Shown here: piece by piece, positions 2,082-42,767 of the stretch | Layout of the letters: every line of letters begins with the position of its first letter | Position numbering within the stretch: position 1 is the first letter of the stretch | Source: Nitrospira sp. | Lineage (GTDB): Bacteria > Nitrospirota > Nitrospiria > Nitrospirales > Nitrospiraceae | Length of the DNA stretch: 64,000 bases | Reading direction: 5' to 3' | Assembly: GCA_030692565.1 (NCBI GenBank) | Contig: JAUYAO010000052.1 | Coordinates: 1-64,000, forward strand | Translations under genes and position numbers: made by a program | Notes under the pieces: generated by a model | What the model saw: only the letters and a program-made list of their open reading frames with translations | What the model was told of the DNA's origin: nothing | Database searches by the model: none

Positions 2082-2924
2082 ATGGGATTGAAAACATATA
2101 AGCCAACGTCTGCAGGGCGTCGCGGAATGACCGCCGTCACGACTGAAGACTTGACAAAGAAGAAGCCTGAAAAGTCTCTGACGGCTTTCCATCACCGGAG
2201 CGGTGGACGCAATACGGATGGCCGGACGACCGTGCGTTTCCGTGGGGGTGGACACAAGCGGCTCTATCGCAAGATCGATTTTAAGCGCGATAAGGTTGGG
2301 ATTCCTGCCAAGGTGGTCTCGATTGAGTACGATCCGAATCGATCTGCGCGTATCGCTTTGCTGGCCTATGTCGACGGTGAGAAGCGGTATATTCTCGCCC
2401 CAGTTGGCTTGGTTGTTGGCTTGACGGTGCAGTCTGGGGTCAACTCTGAGGTTCGCCCAGGGAATGCGCTTCCGCTCTCAAGTATGCCGTTGGGAACGAC
2501 CATCCATAATATCGAATTAAAGGTTGGTAAGGGCGGCCAGCTTATTCGGAGTGCTGGTGGATCTGCTCAGGTCATGGGGCGAGATGGGGACTATGTCCAG
2601 ATTCGTTTGAAGTCCGGCGAGATGCGCAAGGTCTTGTCGTCGTGCATGGCGACGGTTGGTCAGGTCGGGAACGTCGATCACGAAAACGTGAGCGTGGGTA
2701 AGGCCGGCCGGACTCGATGGAAGGGGAAGCGTCCCCACGTCCGTGGCGTCGTCATGAACCCGGTCGACCATCCACATGGTGGAGGAGAAGGTAAGTCTGG
2801 TCAGGGTAATCCTCATCCGGTCTCTCCCTGGGGGCAGCCGACCAAGGGTTACAAGACGAGACAGAACAAGAAGACGGACAAGTTCATTATCGCGAGACGT
2901 AAGTCAGGGGTACGCAATGGCTAG
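2082..2924 (+). CDS. rplB: 50S ribosomal protein L2
   Basis: L2 is needed for subunit association and peptidyl transferase activity. The 280-residue protein has the RNA-binding N-terminal domain ([14 protein letters not shown], then [16 protein letters not shown]) and the conserved [11 protein letters not shown] motif at about residues 227-237, which contains the histidine near the peptidyl transferase centre. Its length is normal. It starts 24 bases after rplW, and its last eight bases overlap the start of rpsS. Confidence 0.97.
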
Positions 2925-27720: not shown

Positions 27721-28983
27721 ATGGCATCAAAAAAGCTTTCATCCGCGCAATTAGAGCAAGCGTTGCGAGAAAAGACTCGCGAGGTGGATGTGCTGCACCG
27801 GATTAGCGAGTCGATCAGTAACACGCTCGATCTTGAGGCCGTGCTCCGGCATATTGTCGATGTTGTGGTCGAGGTAACGAAAGCGGACGCCTGTCTTCTG
27901 TATCTGCTGTCTGACGGCCGGGATGAATTGATTCTTCGGGCCTCGAAAAATCCTCATCCTCGCCTGATCGGGCGCATTACGATCGGTCTGGGCGAAGGCA
28001 TCACCGGCTGGGTGGCCCGTGAGCGGACGCGTGTGGTCGTTCCCAATAATGCCAGTGAGGATCCTCGGTTCAAGTTTTTCAATAACCTTCCCGAGGATCG
28101 GTATCAGGCTTTTGTCTCCGTGCCGATTCTCGCCAAGAAAGAGGTGAGCGGCGTCATCAATGTGCAGCATAAGCGCTCTCGTCGCTATCGAGAAGATGAA
28201 CTCGCGCTCCTCACCACTATTGCCAATCAGGTCGGAGGCGCAATTGAGAATGCCCGCCTCTATGATCAGATGCGCCGGAAGGCGCTGCAGTTGGAAACGT
28301 TGTCGCAAGTCTCAGAGACGGTTGCGTCCAACCGGATAACGGACGATGTTCTTCAGCTGATTGTGACCATGACCGCGCAGATGTTGGGCTCGAAAATCTG
28401 TTCGATCATGCTGCTGGACGAAGCCAGCGGAGAGCTGCGGATTGCTGCCACGCAAAGCTTGAGCGAATCGTATCGGCGAAAACCCAATCTCAAGGTCGGA
28501 CAAAGCATCAGCGGTCGAGCTGTCCAGGAGCGACGATCAATCATCGTTCCGGATGTGACGAAAGAGCGGGACTATATGTATTCTGACTTAGCGGCGAAGG
28601 AGGGGTTTTGTTCGCTGCTGTCTGTGCCGATGATGATGCGGGAGAAGTGTGTGGGCGTAATCAATAGTTACACGTCGGTTCCCCATACTTTTACGTCGGA
28701 AGAAGTGCGGCTCATGCAGGCGATCGCCAATCAGGCGGCAATTTCCATCGAGCATACGACGTTGTTGGAAAAATCGTTCGAGATGCAAGAGGCCCTGGCC
28801 GTCCGGAAGTTGTTAGATCGTGCGAAGGGGTATCTCATGCGATCCAAGAGGCTGTCGGAGGAGGAATCCTTCAAGCTCATTCAACGGCAAAGTATGGACT
28901 TGCGGAAATCCATGAGAGAGATTGCTGAAGCAATCCTGCTTGCCGGGGATATCGACGAGCGCGCCGAGAAACGAAAGGTCTGA
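27721..28983 (+). CDS. GAF-GAF-ANTAR transcription antiterminator
   Basis: This 420-residue protein has two GAF sensor domains and a C-terminal ANTAR RNA-binding domain. A short coiled coil (residues 1-35) leads into GAF1 at about 22-175. GAF2 spans about 195-350, and ANTAR about 358-412 with LLDRAKGYLMRSKRLSEEE, SFKLIQRQSMDLRKSMRE and IAEAIL, the three-helix bundle of the family. ANTAR proteins such as NasR, EutV and AmiR bind paired six-base-loop hairpins in leaders and prevent termination. There is no receiver or NIT domain, so the signal is probably a small ligand bound by a GAF domain. Five matching hairpin pairs follow within 13 kb, which points to it as their regulator. Confidence 0.9.
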   Translation: MASKKLSSAQLEQALREKTREVDVLHRISESISNTLDLEAVLRHIVDVVVEVTKADACLLYLLSDGRDELILRASKNPHPRLIGRITIGLGEGITGWVARERTRVVVPNNASEDPRFKFFNNLPEDRYQAFVSVPILAKKEVSGVINVQHKRSRRYREDELALLTTIANQVGGAIENARLYDQMRRKALQLETLSQVSETVASNRITDDVLQLIVTMTAQMLGSKICSIMLLDEASGELRIAATQSLSESYRRKPNLKVGQSISGRAVQERRSIIVPDVTKERDYMYSDLAAKEGFCSLLSVPMMMREKCVGVINSYTSVPHTFTSEEVRLMQAIANQAAISIEHTTLLEKSFEMQEALAVRKLLDRAKGYLMRSKRLSEEESFKLIQRQSMDLRKSMREIAEAILLAGDIDERAEKRKV

Positions 28984-30160: not shown

Positions 30161-30174
30161 CCAATCTATTATTT

Positions 30175-30280
30175 CGGAGACAATGGAGTCTCCGGTTGCT
30201 TTGATCGCATTGGTCGGACAATGACGTCCTCCGGCGTTTTCACCCGGTTACGGGAAGAAAAGCCTGAGGGCGTTTTTTTT
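30175..30280 (+). promoter_or_regulatory. ANTAR-type antiterminator element and terminator upstream of nadE
   Basis: The first hairpin has a 7-bp stem, CGGAGAC (30175-30181) with GTCTCCG (30188-30194), and the loop AATGGA. After a 21-base linker the second hairpin has GGAC (30216-30219) with GTCC (30226-30229) and the loop AATGAC. Both loops have A at position 1 and G at position 4, as known ANTAR targets do. Bases 30224-30235, in the loop and 3' arm of the second hairpin, also pair with 30262-30273. That stem has one mismatch and a further inner helix and is followed by eight T: an intrinsic terminator that excludes the second hairpin. The nadE start lies 142 bases downstream. Confidence 0.8.
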
Positions 30281-30422
30281 GTTGTGAATGCTGAACACAG
30301 CCGCCGGCTTCGTTCTCACTAGTTCGGAACCTCGACGTACCGGACTGGTATGCCTCGGTGCTTCACGTCGCTGCGGCCTTGCGGGCGACTGTTTTGAGCA
30401 TTCTCTTGGAAACGGGTAGTTC

Positions 30423-32240: not shown

Positions 32241-32356
32241 GACCGACGAAGTGGTTGGTCATTTTCACTGGCAATGGCGCCAGAGTTCGTCATTTTGTCG
32301 CTCTCGCTTTGGGAGCGATAAGGAGGCAGGTCTTTTATTCATTTGGAGGCGCCATG
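32241..32356 (+). promoter_or_regulatory. ANTAR-type hairpin pair whose alternative fold covers a start codon
   Basis: The first hairpin pairs GACCGAC (32241-32247) with GTTGGTC (32254-32260), one G-T pair, around the loop GAAGTG. Seven bases later CTGGC (32268-32272) pairs with GCCAG (32279-32283) around the loop AATGGC. As in the other elements, loop and 3' arm of the second hairpin have an alternative partner: 32274-32281 is complementary over 8 bp to 32348-32355. This segment includes two bases of the ATG at 32354 and part of the ribosome-binding site. No T-run follows, so control here may be at translation start. The 16 bases 32268-32283 are identical to 40878-40893 in the nirA leader. 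Confidence 0.65.
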
Positions 32357-37773: not shown

Positions 37774-39183
37774 ATGAACGTCCGTGAGGTGTTAGAGTTT
37801 GCGAAGAAGAACAAGGTCCAGGTGGTGGACTTGAAGTTCGTCGATTTGATCGGAACCTGGCAGCATTTTACGATTCCGCTCGGGGAGTTGACGGAAGACC
37901 TCTTCAAGGACGGGTCCGGTCTGGACGGCTCATCGATCCGTGGATGGAGGGCCATCAACAACAGCGACATGCTGGTGGTGCCCGATCCTTCGACGGCGAC
38001 TATGGATCCGTTTTGCGCCGTGCCGACGCTGAGCTTGATCGGCAACGTCGTCGATCCGATCACCCGCGAGACCTACAATCGCGATCCCCGCTTCATCGCC
38101 CAGAAGGCGGAGAAGTATCTCCAGAGCACCAAGATCGGCGACACCTCCTACTGGGGCCCGGAAGCCGAATTCTTTATCTTCGATCAGGCCCGCTACGATC
38201 AGACGAATCACAGCGGCTACTACTTCATCGATTCCGAAGAGGGTGTCTGGAACATGGGCCAGGAGGGTGTCAACCTGGGCGGAAAGATCCGTTCCAAGGA
38301 AGGCTACTTTCCGGTGGCGCCGACCGACACGCAGCAGGATATCCGGACCGAAATGGTACTGGAGATGGAGAAGGCCGGCATTTCCATCGAGAAGCATCAC
38401 CATGAAGTGGCCACGGCCGGTCAGGCGGAAATCGACATCCGGTTCGACTCGCTGGTCCGGACGGCCGACAAAATGATGATGTACAAGTACATCGTCAAGA
38501 ACGTCGCGCGCCGTCACGGCAAGACTGCGACCTTCATGCCGAAGCCGATTTTCGGCGATAACGGATCGGGCATGCATACGCACCAGAGCATCTGGAAAGA
38601 CGGCAAGCCCCTCTTCGCGGGCAAGGAATATGCGGGCGTGTCCCAGATGTGTCTCCATTACATCGGCGGCATTCTCAAGCATGCGCCGGCCCTGGCGGCG
38701 ATTACCAACCCGACGACCAACTCCTATAAGCGGTTGACGCCGGGATTCGAAGCGCCGGTGCTGCTGGCCTATTCCAGCCGGAACCGGTCGGCGGGTATCC
38801 GCATTCCGATGTATTCGCCGAGCCCCAAAGCGAAGCGGATCGAAGTGCGCTTCCCGGATCCCGGTGCCAACCCGTATCTCGCGTTCGCAGCCATGTTGAT
38901 GGCGGGATTGGACGGCATCGAGAACAAGATCAATCCGGGCGAACCGGCAGAGAAGGATCTCTACGATCTCGAAGCGAAGGAAGCCGCCAAGATCAAGACC
39001 ATGCCGGGCAGCCTCGACGAGGCGCTGAACAACCTCGAAAAGGATCACCAATTCCTGCTCAAGGGCGGGGTCTTTACGGAGGATTTGATCGAGGCCTGGA
39101 TCGGGTACAAGCGTACGAAGGAAGTCGATACGATGCGGTTGCGGCCGCATCCGTACGAGTTCTTCTTGTACTACGACATCTAG
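37774..39183 (+). CDS. glnA: Glutamine synthetase, type I
   Basis: GlnA makes glutamine from glutamate, ammonium and ATP. The 469-residue protein has [12 protein letters not shown] near residue 49, the ATP-binding [18 protein letters not shown] region near 255-270, [17 protein letters not shown] near 310 and [10 protein letters not shown]. Tyr397 lies in [11 protein letters not shown], the adenylylation site of the regulated GSI-beta type, which fits the GlnE-like genes at 59-63 kb. AAAGGAGGAGGGG precedes ATG 37774. The glnD-glnA gap of 53 bases shows no terminator. Confidence 0.97.
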
Positions 39184-39243: not shown

Positions 39244-39257
39244 TCATTGTATGAGCT

Positions 39258-39348
39258 GATCGTGGCAAAGGCGCCCCGGTCGAGGCTCTCGACATAAGGC
39301 AACGGACAAAGGCGTCCGTCATTCTGAAAGGGATGGCGGGCGCCTTTT
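39258..39348 (+). promoter_or_regulatory. First ANTAR-type attenuator of the nitrite channel gene
   Basis: Hairpin one pairs 39258-39266 with 39273-39281 (eight pairs, one T-C mismatch) around the loop AAAGGC. After 20 bases hairpin two pairs ACGGAC (39302-39307) with GTCCGT (39314-39319) around the same loop, AAAGGC. Loop plus 3' arm of hairpin two also pair with 39331-39347 in a 17-bp stem (three G-T pairs, six-base loop), followed by TTTTGATTTTC. The terminator and hairpin two exclude each other, the arrangement known from ANTAR-controlled leaders. Confidence 0.85.
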
Positions 39349-39395
39349 GATTTTCTGAGCCAGTGAGGCTTCTTCGTCGAAGCCTTGCGCGTAGA

Positions 39396-39475
39396 GGCAG
39401 GTCGTGGCAGACCTGTCGTGAGATGGACAAAGGCGTCCTTTTCCCCTGAGGGAGAAGGACGCCTTTTGTGTTTCT
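39396..39475 (+). promoter_or_regulatory. Second, tandem ANTAR-type attenuator of the nitrite channel gene
   Basis: Hairpin one pairs 39396-39403 with 39410-39417 (8 bp, one G-T) around the loop GTGGCA. Seven bases later GGAC (39425-39428) pairs with GTCC (39435-39438) around the loop AAAGGC. Bases 39429-39445 also pair with 39450-39466 in a 17-bp stem with loop CTGA, followed by TTTTGTGTTTC. It lies about 50 bases after the first terminator and 44 before the gene. A further 7-bp hairpin with loop TTCGTC (39366-39385) lies between the two units. Confidence 0.82.
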
Positions 39476-39510
39476 GGACAATCATCGGACGACCTAACCT
39501 GGAGGGGACT

Positions 39511-40341
39511 ATGCATCACGCGGATCATGAACGGATCGCAGGGGTGGCAAAGAAGAAGGTGGGGTTTCTTGATACATCATTGGGTGGGTACCTTGTGTTG
39601 TCGGCCATGGCCGGCATCTATCTGGGATTCGGCATTGCCCTGATCTTCAGTCTGGGCGCGCCGCTCGCGGCGGCTGGATCGCCGGTGGTCAAGCTGGTGA
39701 TGGGCGCCTCGTTCGGTATCGCCCTGACGCTGGTGATTTTCGCCGGGTCGGAACTGTTCACCGGCAACAATATGATTGGAGCGATCGGCGGGCTCTCGCG
39801 CAGCGTGACGTGGGGCCAAGTTTTCCAGCTCAACTTCTGGTCCTGGTTCGGGAACCTGATCGGATCGTTGGCGCTGGCCTGGCTCGTGGTGGAGTCCGGC
39901 GTCTTTGCCAAGGGGCCGACGGCCGACATGATTCAAAAAGTGGCCGGGGTGAAGATGTCCTTGGGGCCGTGGGAGTTGTTCGTGCGCGGCATCTTGTGCA
40001 ACTGGCTCATCTGTCTGGCGGTCTGGACGGCGGGGCGGACGACCAATGACGCGGCGAAGATCATGCTGATTTTCTGGTGTCTGTTTGCCTTCATTGGGAT
40101 CGGGTTTGAACACAGCATCGCCAATCAATCGTTCCTGGGTATGGCGCTCTTCATGCCGCACGAGGCCGCCGTGAGCTGGGCGGGGTTTTGGTACAACCAA
40201 CTCTTTGTGGTGCTGGGCAATATTGTCGGCGGTGGGATGTTCGTCGGCGGACTCTATTGGCTCGTGAGTCCCTATCGTGTCGAAGCAGCGGAATCAGTCA
40301 CCGTCCCGGTACCGGCCGTGTCGGTGCCGGCAGGATCGTAG
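39511..40341 (+). CDS. nirC: Formate/nitrite transporter family channel
   Basis: This FNT-family pentameric channel probably carries nitrite or formate across the inner membrane. The 276-residue protein has six membrane helices, with GSELFTGNNMIGAIGGLSR at the second-to-third helix loop region and FEHSIANQSFLGMALFMPHEAA around the fifth. I chose ATG 39511 after GGAGGGG (39501-39507); the open frame upstream lies in the attenuator. Nitrite is favoured as substrate by nirA downstream, but formate cannot be excluded. The leader has two tandem ANTAR-type attenuators. Confidence 0.9.
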   Translation: MHHADHERIAGVAKKKVGFLDTSLGGYLVLSAMAGIYLGFGIALIFSLGAPLAAAGSPVVKLVMGASFGIALTLVIFAGSELFTGNNMIGAIGGLSRSVTWGQVFQLNFWSWFGNLIGSLALAWLVVESGVFAKGPTADMIQKVAGVKMSLGPWELFVRGILCNWLICLAVWTAGRTTNDAAKIMLIFWCLFAFIGIGFEHSIANQSFLGMALFMPHEAAVSWAGFWYNQLFVVLGNIVGGGMFVGGLYWLVSPYRVEAAESVTVPVPAVSVPAGS

Positions 40342-40383: not shown

Positions 40384-40830
40384 ATGACGATGTCGAAAGA
40401 TGAAATTCGGAAGGCCATCAAGGAGAAGCGGGTCGCCAAGAAAGTGACCATTGCCGAAGTCGCAAAAGTGGTCGGGAAGAACCCCACATTTGTCGCCGCC
40501 GCGTTGAATGGTAATCATAAGTTGACGGCCGATGAAGCCAAGAAGGTCGGCGACTTGATCGGGCTGGATGCCGAGCTGACGGCGGCACTCAGCAAATTTC
40601 CCGTCCGGGCTGATTTCCCGAATGCGACGGACCCATTCAAGTACCGGCTGTTGGAAATCATCGGGGTCTATGGAGATTCATTGCGCGAGCAGGCCAATGA
40701 AATGTTCGGCGACGGCATTATGAGCGCGATCGATTACACGATGGAAATGGAAAAGGTGACGGGAAGCCAGGGTGAGGCCCGCTGCAAGATTACCCTGAAC
40801 GGCAAGTGGCTCGAGTATAAGACGTTCTAG
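40384..40830 (+). CDS. cynS: Cyanate hydratase
   Basis: CynS converts cyanate and bicarbonate to ammonium and CO2. The 148-residue protein has the N-terminal helical domain (KVTIAEVAKVVGKNPTFVAAAL) and the C-terminal catalytic domain. The catalytic Arg and Glu lie in FKYRLLEIIGVYGDS and the Ser in GDGIMSAIDYTME. Its length is standard. ATG 40384 and ATG 40390 are both possible: AAGGAG ends at 40380, so the second gives better spacing. It lies 42 bases after the nitrite channel gene, so both are probably co-transcribed. Confidence 0.95.
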   Translation: MTMSKDEIRKAIKEKRVAKKVTIAEVAKVVGKNPTFVAAALNGNHKLTADEAKKVGDLIGLDAELTAALSKFPVRADFPNATDPFKYRLLEIIGVYGDSLREQANEMFGDGIMSAIDYTMEMEKVTGSQGEARCKITLNGKWLEYKTF

Positions 40831-40847
40831 CAGGATCGAGGAACGCT

Positions 40848-40943
40848 GGCGCCGACGATGTTGTCGGCGCCGTTCGGCTGGCAATGGCGCCAGCTTCCGG
40901 GGCTCTTGAGCGGGGCCTGCCGGAGGCTGGCGCCATTGTGTTT
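40848..40943 (+). promoter_or_regulatory. ANTAR-type attenuator between cynS and nirA
   Basis: Hairpin one is a perfect 9-bp stem (40848-40856 with 40863-40871) with loop GATGTT. Five bases later GCTGGC (40877-40882) pairs with GCCAGC (40889-40894) around the loop AATGGC. Loop plus 3' arm, 40883-40900, also pair with 40920-40937 in an 18-bp stem (one G-T pair) followed by GTGTTTC. The T-run is weaker than in the nadE and nitrite channel elements. It would control read-through from cynS into the small ORF and nirA. Confidence 0.78.
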
Positions 40944-40965
40944 CAAGGGGGGAAAGGAGGCGACG

Positions 40966-41204: not shown

Positions 41205-42767
41205 ATGAACAAGATCGAGGCGATCAAGGCTGAGCGTGACGGATTGGCGGTGCGGGAGATGATTGCCCACTATGCGACGACCGGGTGGGAATCGATTCCT
41301 GAGGCCGATGTCCAGCGGCTCAAGTGGTATGGCCTCTTTCTGCGCAATCCTACGCCGGGATTGTTCATGGTACGGGTGCGGATTCCCGGCGGGCATACGT
41401 CGTCGTATCAACTGCGGGCGCTGGCCGAGATTGCTTCGACCTATGGCAACGGAGTTTTGGATCTGACCACCAGGCAACAAGTCCAACTTCGGAGCATCAA
41501 GATCGAAGATGTGCCGGCGGTCTTTGCCTGGATGGACGGGGTCGGACTGACCTCCATGCAAACCGGCATGGACAATGTCCGGAACGTCATGACCTGCGCC
41601 ATCGCCGGCCTCAACCCGGATGAGGTCGTTGAGACCACGGCGCTGGTGCGGGCGATCAACGAAGCGATTCTCGGCAATCCGGCCTACTCCAATCTGCCGC
41701 GCAAGCTGAATGTGGCGGTGACCGGCTGCCCGCATAACTGCGTGCATATGGAGACGCAAGATCTGGCGCTTGTGCCGGCGCACTATGATTTGGGGCATGA
41801 CCGGTGCGCGGGATTCAACGTGCTCGTGGGGGGCAAGCTGGGATCGGGCGGGTATCGAATCGCCACGCCCCTGGATGTGTTCGTCAATCCGGCCGAGGCG
41901 TTGGATGTGTGCCGCGCGATTCTGGAAATCTATCGTGACCATGGGCCGCGGGAGAGTCGCACGCAAGCCCGTCTCGCGTTCTTGATCGACGATTGGGGCG
42001 AGGTCCGATTTCGCGCCGAAGTTGAAGCCCGTCTAGGCAAACGGCTCGCGTCGGCCGGAATAGATGCCCGGAAAACGGGAGAACAAGACCATGTCGGGAT
42101 CTTCCGTCAACGGCAACAGGGAATGAACTACGCCGGGCTCAAAGTACTCGTCGGGCGGGTGAAAGCGGCGGATCTCGTGAAGATCCTGAATTTGTCGGAG
42201 AAGTATGGGAACGGGGAAATCCGCATTACTCCCAGTCAAGCGCTGATCATTCCCAATATCAGCGATCGGACCGTCGGGGATCTGGCGGACGAACCGCTCT
42301 TAAAGCAATTCGCCTATAACCCGTCGGCCCTCTATAAAGGCCTGGTCAGCTGCGTCGGCAGCGACTACTGCAATCTGGCGGTGATTGAAAGCAAGGGGCG
42401 GGCGGTCGCGGTGGCCAAGGCGCTTGAGGGGCGGCTGGGCAACTCGCTCAAGCCGATCACCATGCATTGGTCCGGCTGCCCCGCGAGTTGCGGCAATCAC
42501 CTGGTTGCCGATGTGGGGTTGTTGGGGAAAAAGGCCAAAGTCGACGGGAAGGTCGTCGAGGCGGTGGATATTTACGTCGGCGGCCGGTCGGGGCCCGACC
42601 CGAAGCTGGCAGTCAAGATTATGGAAGACGTGCCCTGCGACAAACTTCCGGCAGTGCTCGAAGGCCTGCTGCCCTACCACACACGGGAGAAGATGCACCG
42701 CGTCCGCGGCGGCGGAGCCAGGAAAGTGCTGGTGGGAAAGGAAACAAATATTTCGCCTGCGGCGTAG
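41205..42767 (+). CDS. nirA: Siroheme nitrite reductase (NirA/sulfite reductase family)
   Basis: This family reduces nitrite to ammonium, or sulfite to sulfide, with siroheme and a 4Fe-4S cluster, taking electrons from ferredoxin. The 520-residue protein has two ferrite-like half domains (FMVRVRIPGGHTSSYQLRAL near residue 50, NYAGLKVLVGRVKAADLV near 307) and the anion-site region NVAVTGCPHNC. The cluster/siroheme cysteines are in SCVGSDYC near 381 and SGCPASCGNH near 423. GAGGAGGACGGG precedes ATG 41205. The neighbours favour nitrite as substrate. Confidence 0.92.
   Translation: MNKIEAIKAERDGLAVREMIAHYATTGWESIPEADVQRLKWYGLFLRNPTPGLFMVRVRIPGGHTSSYQLRALAEIASTYGNGVLDLTTRQQVQLRSIKIEDVPAVFAWMDGVGLTSMQTGMDNVRNVMTCAIAGLNPDEVVETTALVRAINEAILGNPAYSNLPRKLNVAVTGCPHNCVHMETQDLALVPAHYDLGHDRCAGFNVLVGGKLGSGGYRIATPLDVFVNPAEALDVCRAILEIYRDHGPRESRTQARLAFLIDDWGEVRFRAEVEARLGKRLASAGIDARKTGEQDHVGIFRQRQQGMNYAGLKVLVGRVKAADLVKILNLSEKYGNGEIRITPSQALIIPNISDRTVGDLADEPLLKQFAYNPSALYKGLVSCVGSDYCNLAVIESKGRAVAVAKALEGRLGNSLKPITMHWSGCPASCGNHLVADVGLLGKKAKVDGKVVEAVDIYVGGRSGPDPKLAVKIMEDVPCDKLPAVLEGLLPYHTREKMHRVRGGGARKVLVGKETNISPAA

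Follow-up and report, generated by a model that had tools for sequence, protein, structure and literature searches.

Two putative ANTAR-dependent antitermination units in series in the nirC-cynS leader of Nitrospira

Results

Two attenuators lie in series between glnA and nirC

The nirC-cynS leader of this Nitrospira sp. very probably consists of two ANTAR-dependent transcription antitermination units in series, opened by a GAF-GAF-ANTAR protein whose gene lies ~10 kb upstream of the tandem (Table 1). We infer the binding, the direction of control and the signal. The ANTAR reading is based on AANGRC loops, a C:G closing pair and the location of the second hairpin (P2, the antiterminator) inside a terminator arm, all of which match the published element (PMC3369931, PMC7496416).

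The window, by which we mean the whole stretch of 64,000 nucleotides that was analysed (contig JAUYAO010000052.1, positions 1 to 64,000), contains a run of nitrogen genes in the order glutamine synthetase (glnA, 37774-39183, with the stop codon at 39183), leader, nirC, cynS, a small gene and nirA. An ammonium transporter gene and a PII gene are both located upstream of the glnA-leader-nirC stretch. Within the leader we found two attenuators in series at 39260-39355 and 39364-39475, as proposed in the initial annotation, which had also correctly given AAAGGC as the second loop of both units. Their terminators are the two strongest terminator-like sites in the surrounding 19 kb. When the window was scanned with a descriptor for an AANGRN hexaloop with a stem that overlaps a strong hairpin, five sites were found on the plus strand and one on the minus strand; ten shuffles gave 0-1 sites each, both strands counted. 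The putative promoter ahead of unit 1 has counterparts in relatives, in that TTGAC(G/C) with a -10-like hexamer (16-18 nt spacing, at least 8 of 12 matches) was present in 29 of 29 leaders checked. Because this promoter-like site precedes the first hairpin (P1) of unit 1 at a near-constant distance in all 29, unit 1 probably starts the leader.

Table 1. Features of the window discussed in the text, with hairpin loops in parentheses
Feature	Position	Strand	Remarks
GAF-GAF-ANTAR protein, 420 aa, proposed antiterminator	27721..28983	+	two GAF domains; PF03861 E 4.9e-18
ANTAR unit before NAD synthetase-like gene nadE (30423), predicted	30174..30285	+	P1 TCGGAGAC(AATGGA)GTCTCCGG, P2 GGAC(AATGAC)GTCC, terminator
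ANTAR-like hairpin pair before porin-like gene (DUF6733)	32241..32356	+	folds; only 15.2 bits with R1
Putative sigma-70 promoter TTGACG-18-TAGAAA	39214..39243	+	leader start expected ~39250
Unit 1 P1 hairpin GGC(AAAGGC)GCC	39260..39279	+	hexaloop 39267-39272; one U-C stem mismatch
Unit 1 spacer hairpin between P1 and P2	39279..39293	+	
Unit 1 P2 (antiterminator) ACGGAC(AAAGGC)GTCCGT	39302..39319	+	loop 39308-39313; paired in 32/32 leaders
Unit 1 intrinsic terminator and U-rich tail	39308..39355	+	stem 39308-39347
Unit 2 far hairpin TGAGGCTTC(TTCGTC)GAAGCCTTG	39364..39387	+	candidate P1 by position
Unit 2 near hairpin GGCAGGTC(GTGGCA)GACCTGTC	39396..39417	+	alternative P1, or spacer hairpin
Unit 2 P2 hairpin GGAC(AAAGGC)GTCC	39425..39438	+	loop 39429-39434; GGAC/GTCC paired in 32/32 leaders
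Unit 2 intrinsic terminator and U-rich tail	39429..39475	+	stem 39429-39466; compensatory pairs across 32 leaders
nirC, formate/nitrite transporter family	39511..40341	+	PF01226 E 4.6e-66; cynS next downstream
cynS, cyanate lyase	40384..40830	+	PF02560 E 4e-29; 3' of nirC
ANTAR-like unit before nirA operon	40848..40945	+	P1 (GATGTT), P2 CTGGC(AATGGC)GCCAG, terminator; 32.0 bits with R1
nirA, nitrite/sulfite reductase-family gene	41205-42767		

Unit 1 is a predicted ANTAR target

By sequence criteria, unit 1 qualifies as a predicted ANTAR target. Both of its hexaloops carry A1 and G4, P2 overlaps the 5' arm of the terminator, and the P1-P2 linker of 22 nt (39280-39301), which contains a small spacer hairpin, lies inside the 2-25 nt range applied to ANTAR RNAs of actinobacteria (PMC8164766). 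Other genera do not evidently retain the spacer as a hairpin. P1 is paired across leaders, with changes on both sides; it occurs as a perfect 10-bp version in the closest relative (G056), and its loop has A1 and G4 in 28 of 28. The terminator comprises 18 pairs including G-U (-30.2 kcal/mol, z -5.2) followed by TTGATTTT, and these pairs are nearly all conserved among leaders. Position 3 of the P2 loop, the freest in the loop, covaries with its terminator partner (A-U 19, C-G 5, U-G 3). A further alternative fold had been suggested, in which P1 of unit 1 pairs with its own terminator; the 10-nt complementarity is present in this leader, but it is perfect only here, in 1 of 32 tandem leaders, and we rejected it as a conserved fold.

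We built a covariance model, R1, from 32 diverse units (alignment A2). In these units 118 cells had changed on both sides compared to 45 in shuffles, with a covariation score of 0.542 compared to 0.250; since the units were partly chosen by descriptor, these counts lean to structure. R1 matched the window at 39257-39360 (83.6 bits) and 30172-30290 (62.1 bits), both of which are in the alignment, as well as at 39394-39479 (46.0 bits) and 40847-40950 (32.0 bits), neither of which is. Outside the window, a search of the same genome with R1 yielded weak matches only, the best of which (19.7 bits) is an ordinary-looking terminator. The nirA unit was absent from the output of this genome search and was found by the window search.

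The RNA occurs together with a single ANTAR protein

The GAF-GAF-ANTAR protein is the sole ANTAR protein of the genome (a single genome match), so both units have one gene in the genome that could encode their cognate regulator. Its ANTAR domain aligns to those of EutV, NasR and AmiR. Among the residues through which EutV contacts RNA, R142, K143, K149, E160, M172 and R175 are identical here, and the changes are K147 to R, Y164 to F, N173 to D, R168 to Q and R177 to S. The identities speak for the ANTAR reading, and the changes at Y164, N173, R168 and R177 count against it.

Across 118 genomes of the family, the RNA was found in 97 and an ANTAR protein in 91, with 90 genomes carrying both, 20 neither, 1 ANTAR only and 7 RNA only (Fisher 8.5e-16, a value not corrected for kinship or phylogeny). 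Five of the seven RNA-only genomes are drafts less than 90% complete; G087 and G114 are not. In G087, which has no ANTAR match, a unit that scores well follows urease accessory-like genes (L165 ~2570-2700, minus strand); no gene is evident downstream of it, and it may be left over from a regulon since lost. In the genus of the genome studied here (27 genomes), nirC and an ANTAR gene are confined to the same 5 genomes, and 12 of 12 further Nitrospirales genomes carrying nirC have one ANTAR gene each.

The tandem is conserved after glnA

We collected nirC leaders by protein homology alone and found NirC homologues in 44 of the 118 family genomes. Tandem P2 units were present upstream of nirC in 32 of these 44, spanning four genera, with a P2-P2 distance of 106-121 nt. 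As these leaders were reached via the protein and selected only for the presence of two P2 motifs, they offer a fairly unbiased test of P1 and the terminators; both terminators are conserved in nearly all 32. The conservation, the covariation and the promoter-like site support the proposal in the initial annotation of tandem attenuators before nirC. Their probable ANTAR identity, the putative regulator in the window and the likely local regulon had been missed.

Some relatives carry the tandem before an nrtABC-like-cynS operon, still after glnA, and nirC there has a single unit of its own. Given this arrangement in one genome (G047, L166 2700-7600), the tandem is tied to its place behind glnA and not to nirC. 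The further Nitrospirales genomes with nirC (n=12) mostly have a single unit before the gene, and no unit was found in 39 nirC leaders checked outside Nitrospirales. In three genomes of one genus (g9; L007, L012 and L015), unit 2 is followed, ahead of nirC, by ~165 nt of similar, repeat-like sequence, to which a stretch in L094 seems related; this may be a small mobile element.

Unit 2 is a putative variant gate

In unit 2, the P2 hairpin shows about the same conservation as its counterpart in unit 1 and overlaps the terminator stem, as in ANTAR targets. The terminator has 17 or more pairs (-31.4 kcal/mol, z -6.3) followed by TTGTGTTT; the 17-bp stems initially assigned to both terminators agree with this one and not with the 18 pairs of terminator 1.

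Two hairpins compete as the first hairpin of unit 2, and their linkers to P2 measure 37 nt (far) and 7 nt (near); the linker of the far hairpin exceeds the 2-25 nt of actinobacterial ANTAR RNAs. We compared this hairpin among leaders by position, not by automatic alignment. A hexaloop hairpin was present 45-56 nt 5' of P2 in 31 of 32 leaders, and its loop, that of the far hairpin, has G4 in 30 of 31 and G (24), U (4) or A (3) at position 1. The near hairpin, which R1 took as P1 in the window, has loop sizes of 4-8 in relatives. In the window, the first loop has G4 in both candidates and lacks A1 in both (UUCGUC far, GUGGCA near). As neither candidate has A1, we class unit 2, on its sequence, as a variant and not as a canonical ANTAR-target member.

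In the EutV system, changes of A1 weakened the action of the protein (PMC3369931), and lengthening the linker by 20 nt abolished it (PMC8934654). The prevalent G at position 1, the longer linker and the spacer hairpin of unit 2, set beside the weakened action of EutV on altered A1 and the constant A1 in P1 of unit 1, would fit an alternative in which only unit 1 is ANTAR-controlled and unit 2 serves as a leaky safety terminator or as a gate with another threshold. We consider this unlikely, since P2 is about as conserved in unit 2 as in unit 1, G4 is retained in the first loop although a plain terminator would not need it, and nirC could not be expressed behind a strong, fully constitutive terminator. 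Two ANTAR-dependent gates in series remain our preferred reading of the leader.

Further units in the window outline a likely compact regulon

The unit before nadE is an alignment member and was also found by the descriptor. It follows the ANTAR gene by 1.2 kb, and many relatives have a unit at a similar distance from their ANTAR gene. The leader of the porin-like gene contains a hairpin pair whose alternative arm, GGCGCCAT, runs into the start codon, adjacent to the ribosome-binding site. This P1/P2 pair is kept by ~20 relatives; outside the genus of the genome studied here, the loop of its first hairpin is of the canonical A1 type, mostly AACGAC. The arrangement suggests a translational ANTAR switch. 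A second copy of the porin-like gene (L200, C3:14508-15260 of the same genome) has no hairpin-pair leader.

These additional units also bear on whether the tandem could simply consist of ordinary glnA terminators whose loops resemble ANTAR targets incidentally, with no regulation. Between the glnA stop codon and unit 1 there is no other terminator-like site, and for this reason both units probably also stop read-through from glnA. As a full explanation, we regard ordinary termination as highly improbable: a promoter-like site lies between glnA and unit 1 in every leader checked, a plain terminator needs neither an invariant A1/G4 P1 nor a conserved P2 in its arm, and like units precede nadE, nirA and other genes and occur together with the ANTAR gene. 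Marginally less credible still is a riboswitch or translation-coupled attenuator responding to a metabolite or a leader peptide with no regulator protein involved; alternative terminator and antiterminator folds would be typical of these classes, but an Rfam search of the whole window returned no family at its cut-off (gathering score), the invariant positions are the ANTAR loops and the P2/terminator with no further aptamer-like core, and the presence of the RNA tracks the ANTAR gene.

Discussion

A model of two gates in series

Our preferred reading, two ANTAR-dependent units in series, would operate as follows. P2 and the terminator are mutually exclusive folds in each unit, and P2 alone is worth -8.8 kcal/mol in unit 1 and -5.2 kcal/mol in unit 2 compared to ~-30 for the terminators, so the terminators should win without help. 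By default, each nascent unit would fold into its terminator and RNA polymerase would stop near 39350 or 39470 (~100 or 220 nt). The active GAF-GAF-ANTAR protein would bind the hexaloops of P1 and P2 and stabilise P2, which would then occupy the 5' arm of the terminator and block terminator pairing, such that polymerase could pass both gates and transcribe nirC-cynS. The same protein may open the single nadE and nirA units and make the start site on the porin mRNA accessible.

Nitrogen limitation, possibly in the form of low glutamine, is the signal expected by analogy: the first GAF domain resembles those of EI-Ntr (PtsP is among its closest structures, E 8.8e-24), and the targets serve nitrite and cyanate use. 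The GAF domain of EI-Ntr binds glutamine (PMC4848567). Expression of nirA in Nitrospira tepida without ammonium (PMC12342949) is consistent with nitrogen limitation as the inducer.

It had been suggested that two gates in series would sharpen the response. For a single gate, NasR read-through is 52% on and 5% off (PMC7496416). With these values, two independent gates compute to 27% and 0.25%, which corresponds to an induction of 108 fold instead of 10; the effective Hill number rises only from 1.0 to 1.13 and the 10-90% input range narrows from 81 to 48 fold. Under this calculation any sharpening is weak, and series gating should mainly bring less leakage and wider induction, not a sharper threshold.

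A more specific picture, which we put forward tentatively and with some doubt, is that of a non-identical, protein-driven two-gate leader, in which a canonical unit is followed by a variant one, its first hexaloop mostly with G in place of A at position 1 and 45-56 nt away from P2. A single GAF-GAF-ANTAR protein would then set two thresholds per transcript, and the leader would belong to a compact nitrogen regulon of Nitrospirales in which transcriptional and translational ANTAR switches are used together.

Relation to known systems

Among Nitrospira are leading nitrite oxidizers as well as the comammox bacteria. With a regulator, its RNA sites and a likely regulon named together, how these organisms control their assimilation of nitrite and cyanate becomes directly testable. 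The conserved tandem provides a natural test of two protein-controlled gates in series, and its second gate could show how much departure from the A1 and linker rules ANTAR recognition tolerates.

Nitrogen genes controlled through ANTAR antitermination are already known, as are tandem gates from riboswitches (PMC9481103). Within the literature searched, the following appear to be new: such antitermination in Nitrospirales under a GAF-GAF sensor, the conservation of the tandem, the variant form of its second unit and the compactness of the regulon around the regulator gene. A literature search combining ANTAR and Nitrospira returned only papers that, judged from title and abstract, look unrelated, and did not find ANTAR control in Nitrospira. 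A recent comparative study describes the nitrogen-assimilation gene cluster of Nitrospira and does not mention antitermination (PMC12342949).

One of the closest known systems is NasR with the nasF leader of Klebsiella oxytoca, where two hexaloop hairpins with A1/G4 and a C:G closing pair, the second inside an intrinsic terminator, place nitrogen assimilation genes under a one-component regulator (PMC7496416). Unlike NasR, the protein described here has a GAF-GAF sensor instead of NIT, the units come two in series, the targets are nirC-cynS, nirA and nadE, and the first loop of the second unit lacks A1. The eut leaders of Enterococcus faecalis likewise combine a dual hexaloop motif overlapping terminators with one regulator, EutV, for several units (PMC3369931, PMC8934654). 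EutV, in contrast, is a two-component response regulator with a strict linker length, and its four units precede different eut genes; we found none described as two per leader. A similar layout is seen in pseudo-cooperative tandem riboswitches, for example those for TPP, in which two like gates with their own terminators share one leader and are decided sequentially (PMC9481103). In those, the RNA itself binds a metabolite, whereas in the nirC-cynS leader the expected ligand is a protein.
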